A stretch of DNA of 58,797 nt from a virus, in IMG/VR virus record IMGVR_UViG_3300018420_000021, positions 1-58,797 of that record; one strand, 5' to 3'. Positions within the stretch are counted from its first letter, which is position 1, and every line of letters begins with the position of its first letter. Of the stretch, positions 17,851 through 50,866 are shown piece after piece. The notes under the pieces were generated by a model. That model ran no database searches, was not told where the DNA came from, and saw only the letters and a list, made by a program, of their open reading frames with translations. A program made the translations under genes and the position numbers.

Positions 17851-18054
17851 ATGACACCCAACGAGCTCGAACATGCAAACAGATTATTCTGGATTGTAAA
17901 GGGACGACTAGTTCCAAAAGGTTGGAGCGATAAAACTATCCAAGATATGGTTAGAGACTATACCAAACGTGTATGGTATAATGAAGAATCATATATCTAC
18001 GAAGAAGGTTTTGAAAAAGCCTGGCAAAAACACTTGACAAATCCTCTTAACTAG
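17851..18054 (+). CDS. small protein, 67 aa
   Basis: MTPNELEHANRLFWIVKGRL. An in-frame GTG at 17824 and a TTG at 17809 could extend it; an ACTAAATA box just before the GTG makes that start possible. Basic with many aromatics. No family recognised. The promoter of the tmRNA lies inside its last codons. Confidence 0.5.
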   Translation: MTPNELEHANRLFWIVKGRLVPKGWSDKTIQDMVRDYTKRVWYNEESYIYEEGFEKAWQKHLTNPLN

Positions 18055-18064
18055 CGTATAAATA
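18034..18064 (+). promoter_or_regulatory. promoter of the tmRNA: sigma70-like and late box combined
   Basis: TTGACA, 17 bp, TATAAA; the -10 is also a perfect late box TATAAATA (18057-18064). The gene could thus be read both early and late. Confidence 0.75.
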
Positions 18065-18074
18065 ATACTGCGAT

Positions 18075-18131
18075 GTTGAAGCAATTCAAACGCTATACAG
18101 GACTCGGGGGCAGTACCCGACGCCTCCACCA
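18075..18131 (+). ncRNA. ssrA: permuted tmRNA, acceptor piece
   Basis: The 3' acceptor half of a two-piece tmRNA, encoded upstream of the coding half. The segment ends in ACTCGGGGGCAGTACCCGA and CGCCTCC, A, CCA. The acceptor strand pairs with GGGGGCG at 18281-18287 and gives the G3-U70 wobble that alanyl-tRNA synthetase needs. GACTC at 18101-18105 can pair with GAGTC at 18321-18325 to build the P2 helix. The non-standard T loop is that of alphaproteobacterial two-piece tmRNAs. The 5' end of the piece is approximate. Confidence 0.88.
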
Positions 18132-18149
18132 TAAACACATGAGGATATC

Positions 18150-18293
18150 ATGAATTGGGATTGGCACTGGATTAGTTGGTTTAAAGGAACTCCTTTTCAA
18201 TGGGGCGATTTTAAATTAAATAGTGGAAATCCTTATAAAAGTTATAGATTTGGACCATTACTTATTCGTGTGTTTATGAGGGGGGCGAAATAG
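18150..18293 (+). CDS. possible 47-aa protein in the tmRNA intervening segment
   Basis: An open frame MNWDWHWISWFKGTPFQWG... with GAGGATATC ahead of the ATG lies wholly in the segment between the two tmRNA pieces. It ends 13 bases inside the coding piece. It is very rich in Trp, Phe and Gly. If real, processing of the tmRNA would destroy its message, linking its synthesis to the unprocessed precursor. It could also be chance. Confidence 0.4.
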   Translation: MNWDWHWISWFKGTPFQWGDFKLNSGNPYKSYRFGPLLIRVFMRGAK

Positions 18294-18460
18294 GATCGAC
18301 TGGTAGTTAATAGGAGAGTGGAGTCGTCCCGATGTAAGCTGGGTTAACGCGAACAATACTATAATTGCAAACGATAATTTTGCATCTGAGGATTTTGCCC
18401 TAGCGGCATAATTGCTCTGGGCGGGACCTGCCTGGAAACAGAAGTGCCACTTTGATTTGG
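18281..18460 (+). ncRNA. ssrA: permuted tmRNA, coding piece with tag reading frame
   Basis: It begins GGGGGCGAAATAGGATCGAC. The tag frame starts with the resume codon GCA at 18367 and reads ANDNFASEDFALAA, stop TAA at 18409-18411. The ANDNFA start and hydrophobic ALAA end match alphaproteobacterial proteolysis tags. The segment after the stop (GGGCGGGACCTGCCTGG) can form a pseudoknot-like stem. It would release stalled ribosomes and tag proteins for proteolysis in the infected cell. The 3' end is approximate. Confidence 0.9.
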
Positions 18461-23003: not shown

Positions 23004-23107
23004 AGATAAAAAGGTGTGGTGTAATCTTTAAAAATCGCCGATCCTACTAAATATTGTATACAGAATAGTTTTAGAAGCTAGGACAGGAATGTATACTACA
23101 AAAGTTA

Positions 23108-23138
23108 AACCGCTACTTTTTAAGTAGCGGTTTTTTTT
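23108..23138 (+). terminator. strong intrinsic terminator
   Basis: AACCGCTACTT-TTT-AAGTAGCGGTT followed by T6. It separates the upstream run from the curli module. Confidence 0.92.
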
Positions 23139-23145
23139 ATAAATA
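23138..23145 (+). promoter_or_regulatory. late-promoter box TATAAATA of the curli module
   Basis: A perfect TATAAATA begins on the last T of the terminator, 21 bases before csgF. A short leader with GAAGGA follows. The curli genes would therefore be expressed late. Confidence 0.65.
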
Positions 23146-23166
23146 CGACTGGGGAGTGAAGGATTT

Positions 23167-23613
23167 ATGAAAACTGTATTAACTACAGCGATTTTCTGCT
23201 TGATAGTCTTTGGGCAAGCATTTGCTAGTGAACTAACACATTCATGGTCAAGTCCTACGTTTAGTGGACAAGGATACAGTAGTCATGTATTGACTATTGA
23301 AAACCTAACACATCAACGAAAAAAGGATCTTAAGTCTGCTGAAGAATCTGCCAAGCGTGAAGCAGAACGTGATGCTGAAAATACAAACATAAACAAATTC
23401 CTTAGAAACTTTGAAAGTCGCGTTTATGCTGAATTGAGTAAACAACTTAGTGAGAAACTATTTGGCGAATCAGCTGAAGACAGCGGCACTATCGAAATAA
23501 TGGGAAATACCATTGAGTATAGCAGTGATGGATCAGTTGTAACTATGATTGTAACTGATGCTGATGGAACTACTACTACTCTTACAGTACCACTAAGTGG
23601 ATTTGGGTTTTAA
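23167..23613 (+). CDS. csgF: CsgF-like curli assembly factor
   Basis: 148 residues. Signal peptide MKTVLTTAIFCLIVFGQAFA. Mature start SELTHSWSSPTFSGQGY matches the N-terminal CsgF segment (FxNPxFGGN) that inserts into the CsgG pore. NINKFLRNFESRVYAELSKQL and the C-terminal DADGTTTTLTVPLSGFGF fit the rest of the family. A charged helical insert lies at ~50-75. CsgF sits outside the outer membrane at the CsgG channel and couples secretion to fibre nucleation. One-base overlap with csgG. Confidence 0.8.
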   Translation: MKTVLTTAIFCLIVFGQAFASELTHSWSSPTFSGQGYSSHVLTIENLTHQRKKDLKSAEESAKREAERDAENTNINKFLRNFESRVYAELSKQLSEKLFGESAEDSGTIEIMGNTIEYSSDGSVVTMIVTDADGTTTTLTVPLSGFGF

Positions 23614-24452
23614 TGTTAAAGATTTTAGCAACTATATTATTTGCATTTAGTTTGACTGGGTGTGCAGGTACACTTAGCAAAGTTTCGCCTCCTAGTACTG
23701 CAATTACACCTGTAACCAAAGGACTCAAAGACTTTCCTAAAATTGGCAATGGCAAACCAGTAGTTGTAGCAGTATACAGTTTTACAGATAAAACAGGGCA
23801 ACGCAAGCCTTCAGATTCATTTAGCAATATCAGTACTGCGGTAACTCAAGGTGCAGAAATATATTTAATAAAAGCACTAGATGACCTAGCCGACGGAGGT
23901 TTCTTTGATGTAGTTGAACGTGGAGGAATGGAGAGTCTGGTTAAAGAACGACAGATTATTAGACAAGCAAGAGAAAAGTTTAATCCCGAAAAAGGATTAG
24001 GACCACTTAAATTTGCTGGTGTTATTATAGAAGGTGGTGTTGTAGGATACGACACAAACAAATACACAGGCGGAGTAGGCGCTCGTGTAATGGGAATAGG
24101 CCCACGAACAGAATGGCGTGTAGATGTTGTTACTGTAGGTATTAGAGCAGTAAGTGTTCTAACAGGCGAAGTTTTACTAGCAGTAAGTGCAGAAAAAACA
24201 ATTATAAGCACTGCTACTGCTATTAATGTTTTCAAGTTCTATGATCTTGGAACAAAGGTACTTGAGATTGAGGCAGGTACTTCTACGAATGAACCTGTAA
24301 ACTATGCTGTAAGACAAGCAATAGAATACGGAGTAATTCAAATGGTCAAGGAAGGAAAAAGAAAAGGATACTGGAATTTCGATAGTACAAAGATTCCAGA
24401 AAAATTTATTGAAAAAGAGGACCGTTTAAACATAACAAAAGTTAAAAAATAA
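23613..24452 (+). CDS. csgG: CsgG-like curli secretion channel lipoprotein
   Basis: 279 residues, the usual CsgG length. Lipobox LTGC with the lipidated Cys at 17. Family features in order: VVAVYSFTDKTGQRK, the DLADGGFFDVVERGGMESLVKER segment, GVIIEGGVVGYDTN, GGVGARVMGIG and VTVGIRAVSVLTGEVLLAVSAEKTI (channel strands). It forms a nonameric outer-membrane pore that exports curlin subunits. It stands directly after csgF and before curlin-like genes, which strengthens the call. Confidence 0.9.
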   Translation: MLKILATILFAFSLTGCAGTLSKVSPPSTAITPVTKGLKDFPKIGNGKPVVVAVYSFTDKTGQRKPSDSFSNISTAVTQGAEIYLIKALDDLADGGFFDVVERGGMESLVKERQIIRQAREKFNPEKGLGPLKFAGVIIEGGVVGYDTNKYTGGVGARVMGIGPRTEWRVDVVTVGIRAVSVLTGEVLLAVSAEKTIISTATAINVFKFYDLGTKVLEIEAGTSTNEPVNYAVRQAIEYGVIQMVKEGKRKGYWNFDSTKIPEKFIEKEDRLNITKVKK

Positions 24453-24478
24453 ACGTCACTCTGGGAGGAGCAACTACG

Positions 24479-25183
24479 ATGAGAAGCGTAGTATTAGGAG
24501 GAGCAGTTATTATACTTTCAGCAATGTTAAGTCCAGCATTTGCTGATAACTTGATCTATATGGATCAGTCAGGTAGTAATGCCTCTATTAACATTAATCA
24601 GGACGGTTCAAGTAACCGTGTTGGTGCAAGTGGTGATGACAGCGTCAGTGACGGTGCTACAACCACTATGGACATCGATCAAGTTGGTACAAGCAACGAA
24701 TTAGATTATGATATCTATGGCGATAACGCCAACATTACTTCTAACATAACCGGTAATTCATCAGACGTTGATGTACAGGTTGGTACTACAGGTGGTAGCA
24801 ACGGTGGATCAGACGATGTTAACATTACTATTAACGCAAGTGGCGGTAACTCAAACACAGTTAGTACTAATGTAGGATCAGTTGATAGTGGCGTTGATGA
24901 TGTTGACATTGATGTTGATATTACTGGCGGAAGTAACAGTGTAACAATTACAGAAAATTCAACAGCAACGAGTATTACAGACAAGCTCACAGATGTTGAT
25001 ATTATTGGTAGCACTAACACTGTAACAATTACTAAAAGTGGTGCATCACAGCATGATACCACAATCAATCAAACAGGTTCGAGCAGTACATTTAGCGTGA
25101 ACCAATCAGGAGCGGAAGCGAGTACTGTAGATGTTACAACGTCAGGGTCTAGTTCTAGCGTTACTATTACTGTTACAGATTAA
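24479..25183 (+). CDS. curlin-like amyloid fibre subunit (CsgA/CsgB type)
   Basis: 234 residues. GGGAGGAG lies ahead of the ATG; signal peptide MRSVVLGGAVIILSAMLSPAFA. The mature part is a low-complexity repeat rich in Ser, Asn, Gly, Thr and Asp with recurring IxQxGxxN and SxNxVxI units (MDQSGSNASININQDGSSN, DIDQVGTSN, NQTGSSSTFSVNQSG). This is the curlin repeat that builds an amyloid beta-solenoid. It is longer and more degenerate than E. coli CsgA (151 aa). Predicted substrate of the CsgG channel. Confidence 0.8.
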   Translation: MRSVVLGGAVIILSAMLSPAFADNLIYMDQSGSNASININQDGSSNRVGASGDDSVSDGATTTMDIDQVGTSNELDYDIYGDNANITSNITGNSSDVDVQVGTTGGSNGGSDDVNITINASGGNSNTVSTNVGSVDSGVDDVDIDVDITGGSNSVTITENSTATSITDKLTDVDIIGSTNTVTITKSGASQHDTTINQTGSSSTFSVNQSGAEASTVDVTTSGSSSSVTITVTD

Positions 25184-26219
25184 TTCTGTAACCGTGGCGC
25201 ATGCCGCAGTAGGAAAAGTTGAACAGCAGATAGGAACTGCTGAAGTGTTTCGTGGTGGCGGCAAGAACACCAGCGAAATAGGCTTTGGCATCGAAATGCA
25301 AGATGATGTCAGAACAGGCAACGGTGTTGTAGGTATAGGATTTGAAGATAAAACAAAAGTTCGTGTTGACAAACACTCAAAGTTAGTTATAGATGATTTC
25401 ATCTATGACCCCAAGAAACCTAATGCAAGCAAACTAGGATTAAAAATTGCGCTAGGTACAGTCCGATACGCCAGTGGACTTATTGCTAAACAGAACCAAC
25501 AGTCTGTTAGTATCCGCACTCCCACTGCTTCTATTGGTGTCAGAGGAACAGCATTTAGTATGACCGTGGATGAAATTGGTCGTTCATTGGTCATACTATT
25601 GCCAAATCCAGACGGCTCAGTAGGTGAGATTTCTGTCACCAGTGATATTGGAACTGTAATTATGAATCAAGCATTTCAAGCAACACTAGTAACTGCCACC
25701 GAACGAGCCCCTGTAAAACCAGTAATCTTAGATCTAACAGAAGCACAAATTAATAATCTTTTAATAATCAATCGTCCACGTAAAATTGAAAAAGAATACG
25801 AGACTGATGATCAATCAACCAACATATTAGATTTCAACGAGTTGGATATAGACTTACTGGCTAACAATGAGCTTGAAGAAGAACAGCTAGTATTTACAAG
25901 ACTAGATTTTAACTTATTAGATGTTGATCTACTGGCTAATATACTAGACATTCTGAATCAGAGACTTTACGAAACCGTAGATCGTTTTCCTAAGGATCCA
26001 ATTGTGGCAGGTGCTTATGAACAAGGTAGCACACAGATATTTGGTGGCGATGGAGAAGAATGGGAAATATATAGACAAGTTGATGGGCGTGTTGTAAGCA
26101 TTGTCACTCCTAGTTCACAAGGCACTAGAATAACATTAAATCAGGCAGGAGTACCTGAACTGGTTCTTCATACTACAGAAGGCGGAAATGATTCTCAAAT
26201 TTTTATTACTCAAAATTAG
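25131..26219 (+). CDS. FecR-domain exported protein
   Basis: 362 residues. Signal peptide MLQRQGLVLALLLLLQINSVTVAHA is read in a second frame over the last 53 bases of the curlin gene. Residues ~27-180 hold a FecR-type domain (GKVEQQIGTAEVFRGG, TPTASIGVRGTAFSM). Then comes a region with two related copies (LDFNELDIDLLANN, LDFNLLDVDLLANI) and a C-terminal beta part. FecR domains occur in surface and fibre-related proteins. Probably a periplasmic or surface partner of the fibres. The start has no good ribosome site; coupling is likely. Confidence 0.75.
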   Translation: MLQRQGLVLALLLLLQINSVTVAHAAVGKVEQQIGTAEVFRGGGKNTSEIGFGIEMQDDVRTGNGVVGIGFEDKTKVRVDKHSKLVIDDFIYDPKKPNASKLGLKIALGTVRYASGLIAKQNQQSVSIRTPTASIGVRGTAFSMTVDEIGRSLVILLPNPDGSVGEISVTSDIGTVIMNQAFQATLVTATERAPVKPVILDLTEAQINNLLIINRPRKIEKEYETDDQSTNILDFNELDIDLLANNELEEEQLVFTRLDFNLLDVDLLANILDILNQRLYETVDRFPKDPIVAGAYEQGSTQIFGGDGEEWEIYRQVDGRVVSIVTPSSQGTRITLNQAGVPELVLHTTEGGNDSQIFITQN

Positions 26220-27021
26220 TATCGTGATCTTCGTGGGAGCGGCCCATGCTGATAATATAATTAGTATTGGACAGATCGGCGATAACGTTACGTTAGAATT
26301 AGTTCAAGATGGTAGTAGAAACACTATTACGGGTTTAACCACTACAAGCAAGTTGGATGGCGACAATATGGATGTGTCAATCAAACAATATGGTAACGAT
26401 CACGTCGCGAAGGGTAACGTAGACGGATATGATAATACTCTAAATTCTTATCAGGGCAATGGTCAAGATAATAACACAACCCATGCTGAAGTTATAGGTG
26501 ATTATAATAGTTTAGACGTGCGTCAAGGTAAACACATGGACGGTACAACTGATGATGATGAAACTGGCGACCATGAGGCTTATTGGACTGTAACAGGAGA
26601 TAGTAACACTCTTGTAAGCGCACAAACTGATGTAAACAGAGGTGGAGGCGGCGGCGCCGGTCATTACCTAAATAACACAATTACAGGCGACAGTAATATA
26701 TTAAACCATACTCAAATGGGCAAAGCAGGACATACAGGTTATGTTGATATATCAGGCAGTTCAAATACTGTTGACTTATATCAGAGAGGAAACGGCGGTC
26801 AAAAGACAGCTGATATAGATTTAAGTGGTGACGGTCATTCAGTTGATATAAGTCAACGAGGGAGTAACAGTGCTAGTGCTACTGTTGATCTTACAAATGG
26901 CGGAGGTGGGTATGATTTTACCCTTTCACAAGATGTTACTACAAGTCCTGCAAGTTATAGCTTGACAGGTACATGTGTAACAATATCTGGATGTACAGTA
27001 TCAGTAAATCAAAGCAATTGA
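26188..27021 (+). CDS. second curlin-like fibre subunit
   Basis: 277 residues. The signal peptide MILKFLLLKISIVIFVGAAHA is encoded in another frame over the last 32 bases of the FecR gene. The mature part has repeated curlin units (ISIGQIGDNVTLELVQDGSRN, DSNTLVSAQ, GSSNTVDLYQRGNGG, VDISQRGSN) plus a Gly-rich loop GGGGGAG. It differs enough from the first subunit to be a nucleator or minor subunit, as CsgB is to CsgA. That division is an inference. Confidence 0.75.
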   Translation: MILKFLLLKISIVIFVGAAHADNIISIGQIGDNVTLELVQDGSRNTITGLTTTSKLDGDNMDVSIKQYGNDHVAKGNVDGYDNTLNSYQGNGQDNNTTHAEVIGDYNSLDVRQGKHMDGTTDDDETGDHEAYWTVTGDSNTLVSAQTDVNRGGGGGAGHYLNNTITGDSNILNHTQMGKAGHTGYVDISGSSNTVDLYQRGNGGQKTADIDLSGDGHSVDISQRGSNSASATVDLTNGGGGYDFTLSQDVTTSPASYSLTGTCVTISGCTVSVNQSN

Positions 27022-27035
27022 TTGAGGAGGAATCA

Positions 27036-27251
27036 ATGAGTGGAGAATTTAATCAAGACAACTATTATACAGAGAATTATAAAAAAATAATGTTATGCCT
27101 AGGACTTTTTGTGGTATTGGCATGTGCTTATGTAACATTTCTCTATTTTGAATATAGAGTAGAAAATGCTCTCTGGGAAACAGTTTTTATTAGCCCAACA
27201 CATTTTTGGAATCAGGTTCCGGTTTGGGAATGGAAATCTGTATTCAACTAA
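27036..27251 (+). CDS. single-pass membrane protein, 71 aa
   Basis: MSGEFNQDNYYTENYKK, with GAGGAGG upstream. One membrane helix (IMLCLGLFVVLACAYVTFLYF) and a Trp-rich outer end (FWNQVPVWEWKSVFN). It lies between the fibre genes and the cyclase, and may link them. No family recognised. Confidence 0.65.
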   Translation: MSGEFNQDNYYTENYKKIMLCLGLFVVLACAYVTFLYFEYRVENALWETVFISPTHFWNQVPVWEWKSVFN

Positions 27252-27254: not shown

Positions 27255-27260
27255 TGTGTG

Positions 27261-29333
27261 ATGGGAAAACTTCTAACTAGCACATGGGTTGCATTGTTAA
27301 CTCTATTAATCTTAGTAACACTTCGTGTCTGGGATCCTACACCTGTTGAAACACTGAGATTAAAAGGCTTTGATTATCTTCAAAGCACAGAACAAAAATC
27401 ACAAAGCAAAGATATTGTACTACTAGACATTGGTGAACCCAGTCTAGAGGCATTTGGTCAGTGGCCCTGGCCCAGAGATTATTTTGCAAACATAATGATG
27501 AAGTTGCGTGAGAACGGCGCACAACTTATTACGTTTGTAGTATTTTTTCCAGAACAAGATCGCATGGGCCAAGATCAGGTATTTGCAGATATACTAGCAC
27601 AAGATCCATACACCATGCTAGCACAAACAGCAACGGATCGTGCGCTCAAAACTCATGGTAAACACATTGCCGCAAATTGGATAGGCGACGATCCCAAACC
27701 TTGGTTATACAACTGGCCCGGTCTAGTAAAGAACATTGACTTATTAGAAAATGCTGCCAAAGGTGTTGGTATGGTTGCAGTAGCACCTGAAGTAGATAAT
27801 CTTGTTAGACGTTTGCCATTGGTGGTAAGAATTGCAGATCAAATATATCCTAACCTTGCTATTGAGTTTATACGTGTAGCTACAGGTGATCCTGGTTACC
27901 AGATTAAAACAGGCCCTAGTGGTGTTCAGGCGGTTAGAGTGCCTGGATTTAATATTGTTAAAACTGATCCTCATAGTAGAATGTGGATTGACTACAACAA
28001 AACATTTGATAGAGTTGAAGTATCCGACGAAGACTGGAGCAGAGTTAATGGCAAGCATGTGTTCATTGGAACTACAGCCGCTGGACTTGCTAACTTTATT
28101 AGTACTCCAAATGGTCTTGTATATCCACATGAAATACAAGCGAGCTTAGTTCAAACAATCCTAGATGGAACCTTTATACAACGACAAGACTTTATGAACA
28201 CACTGGAAGCAATAGTGTTTGCGGTGTTTGGTGTTATACTCTTGTTGGTTGTACCTCGTACAAGTGTCTTACTCACAGTACCGGTATTAGTATTATATCT
28301 AGGTGGTGTAGCAGGATATACTTGGTACGAATGGACAGGCAGTAAAAATCTAGTAGATGCTACATTCCCAATGGCGGCAGGCTTTTTACTATTTGCTCAT
28401 CTCATATACAATAACTTTGCAAGAGAATTCCGTCAGAAGATGGAGATTAAAAAGCAGTTTGCAGGATACTGTTCACCCGAAGTTGTTAAAATATTACAGA
28501 CAAATCCAGACCTAATCAAGAAAGGCGTAAAGAAAGATGTAAGTGTTATGTTTAGTGACTTGCGTGGCTTTACTCCTATTGGTGAACACTATGGCAATGA
28601 TGTCAAAGGACTAGGCGATTATATGAATGGGTACATGGATTCAATTACTAAACCTATTCTTGATAAAAACGGTATGGTTATCAAATATGTTGGTGACGCT
28701 AGTATGCACATTCATGGTGCTCCTATAGACGATCCTAATCATGCTCATACTTGTGTGGGCGTAGGACTACAAATGATCGATGCTGTTGAAAAATATAGTG
28801 CAGAAATGCAAGCAAAAGGATTACCCAAAGCAGAGATGGGTTTTGGTATTAACACTGGTGAAGGCTTTATTGGTGAAATGGGATCTAGTGCCAGACACAG
28901 TTATGACATACTAGGCGATATGGTTAGCACAGCCGCACGTTTAGAAGCACGTTGTAAAGCATATGGTGTATTGTGTATTATTGGTGCAGAAACATACAAG
29001 CGTACAAGTAACGACTTTTTCTACTTGTTTTTAGATAATCTACAACCCAAAGGCAAAAGCACTCCGGACTTTATCTATACAGCGTTAAGCACATCAGAGT
29101 ATATGCTGAAAAACACAAACTGGTGTGTTGCAGAAAATCAACACAACAAGATGCATGAATACTATAAAAACCAACAGTTTGATCATGCTATTAGATTGTG
29201 TAATGCTTTACGTGGTGAGTTCAATGGTAAGATGGACAAGTATTATGACATCTGGATTGAACGCTGTGAACTAATGAAGACTCAGGACCTGCCTAAAGAC
29301 TGGAATGGCGCATTTGTTGCGACCGAGAAATAA
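27261..29333 (+). CDS. CHASE2-domain adenylate/guanylate cyclase
   Basis: 691 residues. An N-terminal membrane helix (TWVALLTLLILVTL) is followed by a CHASE2 sensor (~30-310: DYLQSTEQ, DIVLLDIGEPSLEAFGQWPWPRD, VFIGTTAAGLANFISTP). Three membrane helices follow (~315-390), then a class III cyclase domain with metal-binding VMFSDLRGFT and KYVGDASM, and FGINTGEGFIGEMG. It would sense a periplasmic signal and make cAMP or cGMP in the host cytoplasm. It follows the curli module. Confidence 0.9.
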   Translation: MGKLLTSTWVALLTLLILVTLRVWDPTPVETLRLKGFDYLQSTEQKSQSKDIVLLDIGEPSLEAFGQWPWPRDYFANIMMKLRENGAQLITFVVFFPEQDRMGQDQVFADILAQDPYTMLAQTATDRALKTHGKHIAANWIGDDPKPWLYNWPGLVKNIDLLENAAKGVGMVAVAPEVDNLVRRLPLVVRIADQIYPNLAIEFIRVATGDPGYQIKTGPSGVQAVRVPGFNIVKTDPHSRMWIDYNKTFDRVEVSDEDWSRVNGKHVFIGTTAAGLANFISTPNGLVYPHEIQASLVQTILDGTFIQRQDFMNTLEAIVFAVFGVILLLVVPRTSVLLTVPVLVLYLGGVAGYTWYEWTGSKNLVDATFPMAAGFLLFAHLIYNNFAREFRQKMEIKKQFAGYCSPEVVKILQTNPDLIKKGVKKDVSVMFSDLRGFTPIGEHYGNDVKGLGDYMNGYMDSITKPILDKNGMVIKYVGDASMHIHGAPIDDPNHAHTCVGVGLQMIDAVEKYSAEMQAKGLPKAEMGFGINTGEGFIGEMGSSARHSYDILGDMVSTAARLEARCKAYGVLCIIGAETYKRTSNDFFYLFLDNLQPKGKSTPDFIYTALSTSEYMLKNTNWCVAENQHNKMHEYYKNQQFDHAIRLCNALRGEFNGKMDKYYDIWIERCELMKTQDLPKDWNGAFVATEK

Positions 29334-42784: not shown

Positions 42785-44083
42785 ATGTTTGATTTAGTTT
42801 TTGTGTCCTTCGCGGGCATCTTGGTAGGCATGCTTGCTGGATTATTACCAGCACTACCTGTATTTACAGGCCCATTGATCTTGTACTATTTCGTACAGGA
42901 CTATTATCCTGTTGAATATCTTTTGGTGTTTTGGTTAGCTAGTTACAGCGGCACACAGTTCTTTGGTAGCATTGCTACTATTACCACACGTATACCGGGT
43001 GAAGAAAGTGCGGCAATTTACTTAAATGATATCGACAATTTAACCACAGAACAAAAGCGCAATTTATTATATGATACCGCCATGGGTAGTTATATTGCGG
43101 CAACACTAAGTCTTGTGTTTGTATGGATTGTAGTAACCTACTTTGGCATAGGCATGTTTCCAGAACTTATGAGTATGCCTGTACAAATTGCAGTTTACTC
43201 AGTTGCAATACTGTTGTTCTTTTTAATACAGCCCAGCAAATGGCTTGTAACTCTTGTGCTTATTTCAGTAGGATTATTAATAGGTCCTCGACAAAATTAC
43301 GCATTACCTAATCTATGGTATGACATCCAACAGCTTTATAATGGTTATACTTTGTACATGGTTGTATTAGGTACTATTATATTTCCTGCACTAATAGATC
43401 CCGTCAAACGAATTACAGAAGTAGAACATTTTGGGCGAGTACGTAATAGAGGATATAGCATACTAGCTGGATTGCGTAGTACATTAATTGGTGCAGTGGC
43501 AGGATTAATTCCTGGACCTAGTGCAAGTGTAGCTACAGCTTTTGCATATCGCACTGGCGGATCTAGTAGTTATCGCAGAATTCTAAATGCAGAAACAGCT
43601 AACAACTCAGCAGTAGTAACCTGTGCATTGCCATTCTTTTTGTTAGGGATACCTATTAATCAAAATACATTGCTGATGAGCAACATTATGGATGTACAAA
43701 GTTTGGACATTGTTTCTGTAATACAAGAAACTGGTATGTTTGGATGGACAATATTTGATCTAGTTATTGCAATATCATTATGTGTTATGGTCATCTATTT
43801 TTGGTTAAGTACACATCTAATAGACTTCTATGCAGGTCTAGTTCAACGTTTACACCATCATATGAGATGGGTTGTAGCATTAATATTATTAGCACTGATA
43901 GCAGTAGATTTACAGTACGCTGAAATTGGACTAGGACGATATCTAATGTTATTAGCCAGTTTTACTGTTTTAGGATTTTGGTTACGCAAAATCAAAGTAA
44001 GTGCGATCCCATTCTTGTTTGCTATTATATTAGCTGATAAAATTATTTGGTTAGGCGTTCAAGCCTCGACTATATATTTCTAA
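42785..44083 (+). CDS. TctA-like tripartite tricarboxylate transporter membrane subunit (pair 1)
   Basis: 432 residues with ~11 membrane helices. FAGILVGMLAGLLPALPVFTG is the TctA N-terminal motif; SGTQFFGSIATITTRIPGEES and GLRSTLIGAVAGLIPGPSAS are the other landmarks, including the second GxxxGxxPG. AETANNSAV is typical too. It would carry a carboxylate across the inner membrane with a cation. No TctB is present. The binding-protein gene follows 17 bases later. Confidence 0.85.
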   Translation: MFDLVFVSFAGILVGMLAGLLPALPVFTGPLILYYFVQDYYPVEYLLVFWLASYSGTQFFGSIATITTRIPGEESAAIYLNDIDNLTTEQKRNLLYDTAMGSYIAATLSLVFVWIVVTYFGIGMFPELMSMPVQIAVYSVAILLFFLIQPSKWLVTLVLISVGLLIGPRQNYALPNLWYDIQQLYNGYTLYMVVLGTIIFPALIDPVKRITEVEHFGRVRNRGYSILAGLRSTLIGAVAGLIPGPSASVATAFAYRTGGSSSYRRILNAETANNSAVVTCALPFFLLGIPINQNTLLMSNIMDVQSLDIVSVIQETGMFGWTIFDLVIAISLCVMVIYFWLSTHLIDFYAGLVQRLHHHMRWVVALILLALIAVDLQYAEIGLGRYLMLLASFTVLGFWLRKIKVSAIPFLFAIILADKIIWLGVQASTIYF

Positions 44084-45011: not shown

Positions 45012-45665
45012 ATGTTTGCGAAATTAGATAGTGTAGATAGAGGACTAGTATATAAACTAGTAATTCTACACACATTGGTAATTGCAGTCAGTAACTACTT
45101 GGTGCAATTCAAGTTTAACCTGTTCCCAGGTGCTAATTTACCATTCTTTGGTGAGTTTCCACTGGCGGCGGCAGCGTTTACTTTTCCACTAGTAGTTGTT
45201 GCTACTGATTTAACTGTTCGTATGCTTGGAAAAGAATCTGGACGAGCAGTTGTAGCAATGGCTGTTATTCCTGCTATTATTGCAAGTATCCTAGTCATTG
45301 GTCTAGGTGGTGCACCATGGGAAAAGGCACTACGCATTGGCGCCGCATCCGGTGTAGCATATGGCGTTGGCACAATGCTTGACGTTTATGTCTTCCAACA
45401 CATTCGTGACCGTTGGAGTGAAGCATGGTGGGCGGCACCAGCAATTAGTACAGTTGCCGCTAATGTTATAGACACCTATGTTTTCTTTGCTACTGCATTC
45501 GCAGGACAAATGGGACCAGACGGTAAACTAACATGGATTGGTGAGAACTGGCACATTGTTGCACAGAACAATACACTTACCAAGATCGTTGTTGGTCTTA
45601 TTGTGTTCCTACCAGCTTATGGAGTACTATTACGTGAGCTACGCAAGCGTATGGAGACAAAGTAA
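45012..45665 (+). CDS. VUT/YhhQ-type queuosine-precursor transporter
   Basis: 217 residues, six or so membrane helices. LVIAVSNYLVQF, FTFPLVVVATDLTVRMLGKESGR and YGVGTMLDVYVFQHIRDRW fit the YhhQ/QueT-like (VUT) family that takes up 7-cyano- or 7-aminomethyl-7-deazaguanine. GGGAGG ribosome site. In a phage it could supply precursors for tRNA queuosine or for 7-deazaguanine DNA modification. A terminator follows. Confidence 0.8.
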   Translation: MFAKLDSVDRGLVYKLVILHTLVIAVSNYLVQFKFNLFPGANLPFFGEFPLAAAAFTFPLVVVATDLTVRMLGKESGRAVVAMAVIPAIIASILVIGLGGAPWEKALRIGAASGVAYGVGTMLDVYVFQHIRDRWSEAWWAAPAISTVAANVIDTYVFFATAFAGQMGPDGKLTWIGENWHIVAQNNTLTKIVVGLIVFLPAYGVLLRELRKRMETK

Positions 45666-46282: not shown

Positions 46283-47110
46283 ATGACATTTTTAAATATA
46301 AATCTAAACAGTTTCCATCATAGACTTCTAATACTAGTCTATAGCTTGCATTTATTAGCTATAGCTGGATTAATCTACTATTGGGATCCTATCTACCTAT
46401 TATGGACGTTACTAGGAAAAATACTATTCTATAGTATTGGAGTAGAAATTGGTCTACATCGTTATCTAGCACATAGAAGTTTTAATATGGCAAAATGGAA
46501 AGAACGTATTTTATTATGGCTCAGCATCTATGGTTGCTACGGCAGTAGTCTAGGTTGGTGTGCTAATCATCGTGTGCATCATAAAAATGCAGACAAGCAC
46601 AATGATCCACATCCAAGTAAGAACTGGTTTACTACATGGTTTTGGGTTGACACAGAAAAAAATGTTGTGATTAGTCCAACAGTAGTTAAAGATTTAGTTA
46701 AAGATCCTTTCCATAAATGGATGCGTGACTATTATTTCCATATTTGGGCAGTTACATTAATAGTATCAGCAGTATTGGTTTCACCTAAGTTCACACTTTA
46801 CATGTTTATTGTTCCTGGAGCACTAGCACAACTTAGTGGCGGACTAGTAAACGTTGTTTGTCACAAATGGGGTTACAAAACTTATGACATTGACGATTAT
46901 AGTAGAAACAATTTTTGGGTGAACTTATATAGTCAATTCTCTGGAGTAGGGCTACACAATAATCATCATGCCAAACCTTGGAGTTATACCACATTGCCTG
47001 AAAATCCAAAATGGTATGAAATTGATTTAGGTGGCTGGCTAATTAGAAATTTTCTAATGGATAAAGAAGGCGAAGATTGGGACAACAAGAAAGAAAAAGC
47101 AAAAGCATGA
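46283..47110 (+). CDS. fatty-acid desaturase 1 of 3
   Basis: 275 residues. All three histidine boxes: HRYLAH (H59...H64), HRVHH (H96, H99, H100) and HNNHH (C-terminal). Hydrophobic stretches lie before and between them, as in acyl-CoA or acyl-lipid delta-9 desaturases. A di-iron centre would insert a double bond using O2 and electrons from host ferredoxin or cytochrome. It overlaps the next gene by ATGA. Confidence 0.88.
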   Translation: MTFLNINLNSFHHRLLILVYSLHLLAIAGLIYYWDPIYLLWTLLGKILFYSIGVEIGLHRYLAHRSFNMAKWKERILLWLSIYGCYGSSLGWCANHRVHHKNADKHNDPHPSKNWFTTWFWVDTEKNVVISPTVVKDLVKDPFHKWMRDYYFHIWAVTLIVSAVLVSPKFTLYMFIVPGALAQLSGGLVNVVCHKWGYKTYDIDDYSRNNFWVNLYSQFSGVGLHNNHHAKPWSYTTLPENPKWYEIDLGGWLIRNFLMDKEGEDWDNKKEKAKA

Positions 47111-47889
47111 ACATGAATCCATACTATCAAACACTATGGGCAGTATGGGGCAACCACATATTAACCGTAGTATTTTTAACACTAAATTTTGAATGGTGGC
47201 TGTTAGCATTTATGTTTGTTAACCTGCACATATTTGCATTCTTTAGTGAAGCAAGTATACACAGGTACTTCACACATCGAGCTTACACAGTAGGGTCACG
47301 TTTTAAGGAACATGTGTTAAAGTTATTTGCATTCCTAACAGGACAAGGTGCAATACTAAGTTGGGTTACAGTACATCGACATCATCATGCTCACGAAGAC
47401 AAACCGGGTGATCCACATAGTCCATACTTTTTTCCTTGGTGGAAAATCTATCTAGGACTATTCCCCAAAGAAGGTTACCAAAAAAATCTAATCATGGATT
47501 TGATTAGACATCGTGACAGAAAATATTTTATATTTGAAAACAAATATTACTGGTTGTTATGGACAGCAACATGGATTGTGAGCTATGCAATTCATCCATT
47601 GTTCTTTTTCTTTATTGTTAGCGGCAGTGCTATGTGGTACTTTGCTACCAGTGTAGTAAACATTCTTGCACACAAGCATCTAGTAGGATATAAAAAGTAT
47701 CCCGAAGCAGTTGCTAACAACAGTTTATTTTTACAATTACTAACTAGTATTGGAAATCACAATAACCATCACAAACGTCCTAGGAGTTATACCTATGCAC
47801 TTGACGAGTCTGAAAAAGACTGGATTGGTTTACTAATAGAAAAAGTATTTGCTAATACACTTGCAGTACCTAGAGGAGCAAAAAAATGA
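47107..47889 (+). CDS. fatty-acid desaturase 2 of 3
   Basis: 260 residues from MNMNPYYQTLWAVWG. Boxes HRYFTH, HRHHH and HNNHH are complete. Three to four membrane helices. It differs greatly from its neighbours outside the boxes, so it is not a recent duplicate and may act at another position or substrate. It overlaps both neighbours by four bases. Confidence 0.88.
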   Translation: MNMNPYYQTLWAVWGNHILTVVFLTLNFEWWLLAFMFVNLHIFAFFSEASIHRYFTHRAYTVGSRFKEHVLKLFAFLTGQGAILSWVTVHRHHHAHEDKPGDPHSPYFFPWWKIYLGLFPKEGYQKNLIMDLIRHRDRKYFIFENKYYWLLWTATWIVSYAIHPLFFFFIVSGSAMWYFATSVVNILAHKHLVGYKKYPEAVANNSLFLQLLTSIGNHNNHHKRPRSYTYALDESEKDWIGLLIEKVFANTLAVPRGAKK

Positions 47890-49594: not shown

Positions 49595-50866
49595 ATGCTT
49601 GAAATAGCGACAGCAGGATTTGTTGGTATAATTTCTGGGGTGCTAACTGGACTCGCTCCTGGTATCCCTATCTTACTAGGATATTTTCTGTTCTTACCAA
49701 TTATTGATCCTACCCCTTTGCCTTTGTTGTGTTATGCAATGGTAGCACTGATGGGTACTCAGTTCTTTGGTAGTCAAGCCGCTTTGTATTATCGTATTCC
49801 TGGCGAATCAAGTTCCTTTCCGATTCTATTTGAACTAAAAAACTTTAAAACACCTGGTGAGATTTATCAAGCGGTGCAAACAACTACCTATGGCAGTTTA
49901 GTAGCTAGTTTGTTTGCCAGTGGTATACTGACATTAACTTTGATGGCTGGATTACTACAAGGTCTCACTCTTCCAATACTGGCAAAATTTGCAATATTTG
50001 TATTTTTGATAGTAGTGTCTATCACTAGCGATAGACGCTGGATAATCAACACATTAACAATAGTATTTTGCTCTTTTATTTCGTTCTATGAAGATCTAGC
50101 TCCTTATGTTGGTACACCAACATATTATTTCAACAGTTTATTAGCATTGATTATTATAGTATCAATGCAGATGACTTTTAAAGATCCTGAAGAAATCAAT
50201 TACGACTTGGTCGATAAAACAGATAAGCAACCTTTTCCTGTAAGAAAATGGATTGGACCATTTTCCATATACAGCCTACTAGGATCGCTCTTTGGGTTTG
50301 TACCACAGTTAGGAGCTTCACTTTCAAGTTATTGTTGTTACCTCTATCAAAAATTCAGAGGGCATTCGCCACTGGCACGTGTAGCCGCTAGCGAAACTGC
50401 TAATAACTCTGCTATCATAACAGCATGGTTACCTTTGTTAGTATTTGGAATTCCTATTACTGCAACTGAAGTGTTTTTTGTACAGTATTTTAATCAATTG
50501 GGGTTTGGGTTTGAGTTTATGAAAGAAACATCAAACCAACTTACTCTACTAGGTGTGTTAGTCTTTGCCACTTTTACGTTTTCGGCGCTGGCATTGACTA
50601 CAAATAAGTATTTTTATAATTGGATTGCGCTAATTTTAACTACACGCTGGTTTGGTGTAATCATAGCAACAATTAGTATTTCGATGTTCTTTTATGCTAA
50701 CAGCTATACGTTTCAGTATATACTAGTTCATCTTGCTGTGTTTTTACCAATCAGTTATATTGTAGCAAAATTAAAAGTAAACCTTTTACCGATAGTAATT
50801 GGATTCTTGTTAACAGGACAGATCTTACAAACAGGTTATCGAGTGTTCCAAATTTACATATTCTAA
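49595..50866 (+). CDS. TctA-like tripartite tricarboxylate transporter membrane subunit (pair 2)
   Basis: 423 residues, ~11 helices. FVGIISGVLTGLAPGIPILLG, GTQFFGSQAALYYRIPGESS and SLLGSLFGFVPQLGASLSSY match the TctA landmarks; SETANNSAI is shared with pair 1. The second GxxPG is changed to GFVPQLG. Sequence divergence from pair 1 is high. It would work with the binding protein that follows 19 bases later. Confidence 0.83.
   Translation: MLEIATAGFVGIISGVLTGLAPGIPILLGYFLFLPIIDPTPLPLLCYAMVALMGTQFFGSQAALYYRIPGESSSFPILFELKNFKTPGEIYQAVQTTTYGSLVASLFASGILTLTLMAGLLQGLTLPILAKFAIFVFLIVVSITSDRRWIINTLTIVFCSFISFYEDLAPYVGTPTYYFNSLLALIIIVSMQMTFKDPEEINYDLVDKTDKQPFPVRKWIGPFSIYSLLGSLFGFVPQLGASLSSYCCYLYQKFRGHSPLARVAASETANNSAIITAWLPLLVFGIPITATEVFFVQYFNQLGFGFEFMKETSNQLTLLGVLVFATFTFSALALTTNKYFYNWIALILTTRWFGVIIATISISMFFYANSYTFQYILVHLAVFLPISYIVAKLKVNLLPIVIGFLLTGQILQTGYRVFQIYIF

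Follow-up and report, generated by a model that had tools for sequence, protein, structure and literature searches.

A 58,797-nucleotide IMG/VR virus record of a large marine-type phage (IMGVR_UViG_3300018420_000021), referred to here in its entirety as the window, carries a curli-type (type VIII) secretion module in which genes for a CsgG pore, its CsgF partner and two curlin subunits stand in one run with FecR-domain and CHASE2-adenylate cyclase genes. For SAR11 and OM43 phages, curli modules that include FecR and cyclase genes have been published (PMC7029224, PMC9004378, PMC9599517), and the core finding is thus already known; what appear to be new are the jumbo-phage lineage that hosts the module, a curlin-like tail on the FecR protein, the generality of the FecR-CHASE2 pair, and a PA14 domain that the second curlin of related phages often carries. 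We favor, with moderate confidence, the explanation that this is a late-expressed phage type VIII module of which the curlins would form fibers on the infected cell, and of which the FecR-CHASE2 relay would make cAMP that tracks their export. This explanation draws on gene content and order, catalytic residues, domain folds, purifying selection, and late-promoter placement, all of which were read from the sequence. A first-pass annotation of the window had recognized a phage-borne curli module behind a likely late promoter, a reading that is upheld here, but had overlooked the CHASE2 cyclase, the curlin-like tail of the FecR protein, and the earlier publications.

Organization of the module and its likely late promoter

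The module is encoded on the + strand and lies behind an intrinsic terminator that closes the upstream operon (23107-23133; 12-pair stem followed by a T-run). It opens with TATAAATA, a T4-type late promoter box (23138-23145), 22 nt before a csgF-like gene for the pore-capping/anchoring factor (23167-23613; PF10614, E=3e-14). This is followed by a csgG-like gene encoding the outer-membrane secretion pore lipoprotein (23613-24452; PF03783, 1.5e-47; solved CsgG 3x2r, E=7e-44; lipobox LTGC), the gene for the amyloid subunit curlin A with its signal peptide (24479-25183; NCBIfam CsgA, 9e-6), the gene for the FecR-domain protein, likewise with a signal peptide (25131-26219; PF04773, 1.3e-8; 53-nt overlap with curlin A), and the gene for a second amyloid subunit with a signal peptide, curlin B (26188-27021; PF07012, 2.4e-7; NCBIfam CsgA, 4.9e-5). 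The Pfam and NCBIfam profile searches thereby located the csgF-, csgG-, and FecR-like genes and both curlin-like genes where the first-pass annotation had placed them. Its span of 23138-27021 was correct for these five genes but not for the end point, as the run continues to 29333 with a small single-span membrane protein (27036-27251; an ORF with a ribosome-binding site) and the CHASE2-adenylate cyclase, composed of a periplasmic CHASE2 and a cytoplasmic class III cyclase domain (27258-29333; PF05226, 8.6e-40; PF00211, 4.5e-17). No relative of the small membrane protein was found, and no other locus in the comparison has it. Several neighboring genes overlap by their start and stop codons in the manner of an operon, and the FecR, csgG, csgF, curlin, and cyclase genes reproduce the csgF-csgG-curlin-FecR-curlin-AC order of the T8SS module of PMC9599517.

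The first-pass annotation had described the promoter as a perfect late box. With four copies found against 6.5 expected, the window shows no enrichment of TATAAATA, and its count was dropped as promoter evidence in favor of placement and conservation. Each of the four copies precedes the start of a gene on the same strand by 6-24 bases (p ~5e-7, or ~2e-5 relative to other A/T-only octamers, with a gene list compiled by hand), the genes behind them being csgF, two further coding genes, and the modeled 5' end of a tmRNA. Moreover, the terminator and TATAAATA likewise precede csgF in the closest relatives, L002-L005, and the stem sequences of the terminators at this same place differ in L002, L004, and L005. 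The copy of TATAAATA before csgF is likely a real promoter, and its placement, in combination with the terminator and box kept in L002-L005, makes it most likely that the module starts from a late promoter of its own. The tmRNA mentioned above is a permuted two-piece molecule of the alphaproteobacterial type (18030-18453, + strand; Rfam 111-113 bits) that is missed by ARAGORN and of which the modeled 5' end lies 6 nt past a TATAAATA box; two-piece tmRNAs are known from marine phages (PMC9004378).

The secretion pore

The sequence contains the constituents that characterize type VIII secretion, namely a CsgG pore lipoprotein, a CsgF with a CsgG-binding N-terminus, and curlin subunits. The E. 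coli-type double pore ring (CsgG Tyr51/Asn55/Phe56, CsgF Asn17), which is no requirement for membership of type VIII, is not matched. In the alignment, CsgG retains Asn55 and has Tyr51 and Phe56 replaced, and in CsgF the equivalent of Asn17 is gapped, whereas the N-terminal P-x-F-x-G motif of CsgF is retained, including the Phe12 position, with an aromatic Trp at the position of Phe7 (residue roles from PMC6957492; numbering carried over by manual count on the alignment). The CsgF sequence gave no match to solved structures at E up to 1. The altered ring residues imply that the pore may work differently from that of E. coli, and we consider it probably functional, with a different gating.

A match to CsgE (PF10627) was absent from ten phage records, comprising the window, which is a fragment, the complete HTVC008M and Melnitz genomes, and seven large contigs, in agreement with the earlier observation that csgE is not seen. 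CsgE is helpful to curli secretion and not essential, and many bacterial operons lack it. The absence of a CsgE match and the altered ring residues would suit the proposal made for phage Melnitz, according to which CsgG and CsgF form a pore only, repurposed for envelope permeabilization or for lysis timing (PMC9004378). This proposal appears improbable for the present module, since the Melnitz record as deposited includes two proteins annotated with curlin repeats and thereby contradicts the premise in PMC9004378 that fiber subunits are missing, and since the curlins are retained in order, are under purifying selection, and in some phages carry PA14 domains. CsgG-like genes of Brevundimonas giant phages (26% identity, no annotated curli module) were set aside as candidates.

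Curlin subunits

Curlin A has no Pfam match, and its AlphaFold2 model, based on a 22-sequence alignment, is a confident beta-solenoid (pLDDT 85.5, pTM 0.80). A Foldseek search with this model returned nothing at E<=0.001 and the E. coli CsgA fibril only at E=1.7, and many unrelated beta-solenoids also match it. Comparison of curlin B with the PDB gave chance matches only, and this subunit constitutes the variable part of the module across phages. In four related contigs, the second curlin has an N-terminal PA14 (lectin-like) domain by Pfam (L018, 9631-10935; L023, 8534-9853; L039, 5879-7231; L049, 9715-10759), and a derived HMM detects PA14 in curlin B of HTVC008M (L174, 10579-11904) and of other phages; it is absent from curlin B of the window. 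These fusions suggest that the PA14-curlin may be an adhesin-bearing amyloid subunit in phages. In three contigs, a large exported protein of unassigned family is encoded between curlin B and the cyclase (L002, 10478-12469; L005, 10477-12414; L055, 11257-12167; 645-663 aa where complete), and the window has no such insert before its cyclase.

The FecR-domain protein and its curlin-like tail

Residues 55-211 of the FecR model match a PupR/FecR-type signaling domain (Z 15.1, 134 residues, rmsd 2.8). The protein starts with a signal peptide and has no cytoplasmic sigma-binding N-terminus, and FecI and FecA are not adjacent, its neighbors being the curlins and the cyclase. Its C-terminal domain is modeled as all-beta with strands spaced one curlin repeat apart, and residues 294-361 (26010-26213) constitute the curlin-like tail, in which Q361, adjoining the C-terminus, is invariant across 37 phage FecRs. 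Taken by itself, the domain (pLDDT ~80) does not significantly match any solved structure, and Pfam Curlin_rpt is found in none of the 37 phage FecRs and does not reach the tail, so that the assignment depends on custom motif and HMM tests. A two-motif test, which demands two curlin kernels (hydrophobic-x-hydrophobic-x-Q) one repeat apart and ending within the last 14 residues, was positive in 28 of the 37 phage FecRs (shuffles: mean 0.9, maximum 4 of 37), in none of 19 cellular FecRs, and in 101 of 161 true curlins. Likewise, a curlin-tail HMM scored at least 5 bits on 12 of the 37 phage tails, compared to 1 of 1110 shuffles. Among the FecR matches listed for 372 alphaproteobacterial genomes, all end at or before position 266 of the full-length model except on two contigs of a single MAG, which are phage-like and carry the same phage-type module. 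The curlin-like tail seems to be a newly noticed feature that would apply to this whole kind of phage T8SS modules.

Such a tail could also belong to an anchor or nucleator instead of a sensor, in which case the FecR domain would reside in the periplasm or plug the CsgG vestibule, and the tail would template the fiber, combining the tasks of CsgB and CsgE. Its position at the extreme C-terminus of FecR would be appropriate for this role, as would the absence of a CsgE match, the implication of the imperfect C-terminal repeat of CsgB in contact with CsgF (PMC10192328), and the resemblance of FecR residues 24-119 to an adhesin cell-surface anchoring domain (5ix9, Z 7.5), although this Z falls in the range of common arrangements. 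We consider the anchoring role unlikely, since the FecR-CHASE2 pair is common without curli, which argues for signaling.

The CHASE2 cyclase and its pairing with FecR

Both metal Asp residues, the adenine-site Lys, and the transition-state Arg are intact in all 46 phage cyclases compared, and the transition-state Asn is replaced by Ser in about half of them (motif GDxVSTAAR), a replacement not seen among 21 cellular CHASE2 cyclases. The window cyclase belongs to the half with Ser and keeps CHASE2 and the other catalytic residues of a class III adenylate cyclase. Of 103 CHASE2 genes in 96 alphaproteobacterial genomes, 34 have a FecR gene no more than 5 kb away, against 0.8 expected by random placement, and a FecR-CHASE2-cyclase cluster has also been described in Campylobacterota (PMC9239204). 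The pair is widespread without curli, and its adjacency points to a general cellular pair that is not specifically concerned with iron regulation. Five alphaproteobacterial csgF loci, in turn, have no FecR or cyclase gene within 8 kb. Given that the pair occurs in cells and that these csgF loci have neither partner, the phage module gives the impression of two cellular systems combined, a reading that differs from that in PMC9599517, where FecR is taken as an iron-dependent regulator. The same paper considered import of nutrients or iron through the pore with FecR as the iron regulator; the FecR family name and the capacity of an open pore to pass small molecules would be in line with this, whereas the module contains no sigma factor or TonB receptor and FecR generally pairs with CHASE2 cyclases, which makes import very improbable. 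PADLOC PycC matches the cyclase domain only (1.8e-15), and no Pycsar-type toxic effector was recognized among the neighbors of the cyclase; a Pycsar anti-phage reading has just this generic cyclase match in its favor, and the CHASE2 architecture appears to fit ordinary signaling better.

Phage lineage, distribution, and probable exchange of the module

The large terminase encoded by the window is 53% identical to that of PA5oct-type Pseudomonas jumbo phages (~286 kb), 50% to that of Sinorhizobium phage Phosso (469 kb), and, across 81% of its length, 53% to that of Agrobacterium phage Atu_ph07 (490 kb), and the 58.8-kb contig probably represents only part of a far larger jumbo-phage genome. Elsewhere the window encodes two TctA-family tripartite tricarboxylate transporter proteins (42785-44083, 1e-32, and 49595-50866, 9e-31; both + strand), and near these it encodes a Vut_1 vitamin transporter (45012-45665) as well as a fatty acid desaturase (47077-47889). 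Host-like cargo such as the TctA transporters and the desaturase could indicate host DNA or a chimera, an origin that is hardly credible, as UvsX, SSB, the T4-type terminase, and further phage-family proteins are encoded on the same contig, the module is found again in numerous viral contigs, among them one of 183 kb (L047) with a terminase 65% identical to that of the window, and the phage CsgGs form one clade apart from six cellular ones sampled. The first-pass annotation had named host DNA around a prophage as the finding that would overturn its reading; the hallmark genes on the contig and the sharing of the module by jumbo-phage and Kyanoviridae relatives support the phage origin that it assumed.

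A scan of viral contigs in IMG/VR yielded 80 loci, and the order csgF-csgG-curlin-FecR-(curlin)-cyclase, for which the first-pass annotation had suggested a survey, recurs wherever these contigs reach far enough, as well as in the cultured phages HTVC008M and Melnitz. The module genes are under purifying selection, with dN/dS mostly 0.05-0.2 for all six genes. All 43 phage CsgGs fall in one group in a tree with six cellular sequences (98/99 support, with thin cellular sampling). The window CsgG is ~48% identical to that of L047, which is as much as to those of T4-like contigs with 31-34% identical terminases, and L047 is placed elsewhere from the window in this tree; distance and placement together suggest that phage lineages have exchanged the module. 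The scan of genome contigs reached mainly phage contigs inside MAGs, and the cellular loci were derived from a separate genome search. The curli modules in Rhodobacteraceae and Pirellulales MAGs (L082, L083, L084) resemble misbinned phage contigs, which calls for caution with origin trees made from MAGs.

Discussion

In the explanation that we favor, the module would be expressed late in infection, CsgG and CsgF would assemble an outer-membrane pore, and curlins A and B would be exported through it and grow as amyloid fibers on the infected cell. FecR and the CHASE2 cyclase would bind each other and act as a periplasm-to-cytoplasm relay that makes cAMP; most likely, the curlin-like tail of FecR would bind curlin subunits or the growing fiber, by which cyclase output would follow fiber export. 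Amyloid export, both binding events, and the coupling of cAMP to export are what we infer from the genes described above. The least certain step is the purpose, for which keeping nearby cells or virions close to the cell undergoing lysis, or protecting that cell from other phages, may be envisaged; the first-pass annotation had likewise suggested that the fibers may coat cells, hold them together, or block superinfection, and 'sibling capture' and superinfection exclusion are published proposals (PMC7029224, PMC9599517). The absence of a CsgE match and the changed pore-ring residues are points against this explanation, as is the absence of clumping in cultures infected with Melnitz, a phage that shares this module (PMC9004378). 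More tentatively still, phages may have linked curli to a FecR-CHASE2 cAMP sensor of cellular origin through the curlin repeat of FecR, creating a second-messenger circuit that reads amyloid and in which cAMP would follow the export of fibers as infection proceeds.

Curli modules of phages are common in marine waters, and the presence of one in a jumbo phage, with a CsgG equidistant from T4-like relatives and a jumbo relative, indicates that the module is passed on as a whole between unrelated phages and is of use to its carriers. The FecR tail ties the fiber genes to the cyclase in a specific, testable way, and it makes the label 'iron regulator' look wrong.

Comparison with known systems

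The T8SS of pelagiphages (HTVC008M, pelagimyophage MAGs, and HTVC023P-type podophages; PMC7029224, PMC9599517) has like genes in like order, including FecR and the cyclase, and the CsgG of HTVC008M is 47% identical to that of the window. The window differs from these phages by its jumbo lineage (PA5oct/Atu_ph07-type terminase), by the lack of a recognized histidine kinase directly upstream of csgF, and, relative to HTVC008M, by a curlin B without PA14. The Methylophilales phage Melnitz (PMC9004378) carries the same module, with CsgG and cyclase 44% and 47% identical to those of the window, and also has a two-piece tmRNA; it is a T4-like member of the Kyanoviridae, and its module was read as a lysis-timing pore without fiber genes. 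The jumbo lineage, the FecR tail, and the PA14 fusion are absent from PMC7029224, PMC9004378, and PMC9599517, and a full-text search, with subscription papers and preprints outside its scope, returned none of these three features and no paper linking a FecR domain to curlin, or curli or CsgG to a jumbo phage.

Bacterial curli operons (E. coli csgBAC-csgDEFG and the alphaproteobacterial loci L134-L138) share the CsgG pore, CsgF, and curlins with the phage module, which differs from them in having no csgE match and in the addition of FecR and the cyclase. In cellular FecR-CHASE2 clusters (Campylobacterota, PMC9239204; Alphaproteobacteria), an exported FecR-domain protein adjoins a CHASE2 class III cyclase, as it does in the phages, whereas the curlin-like tail, which the cellular FecRs examined do not have, is specific to the phage proteins in this comparison.
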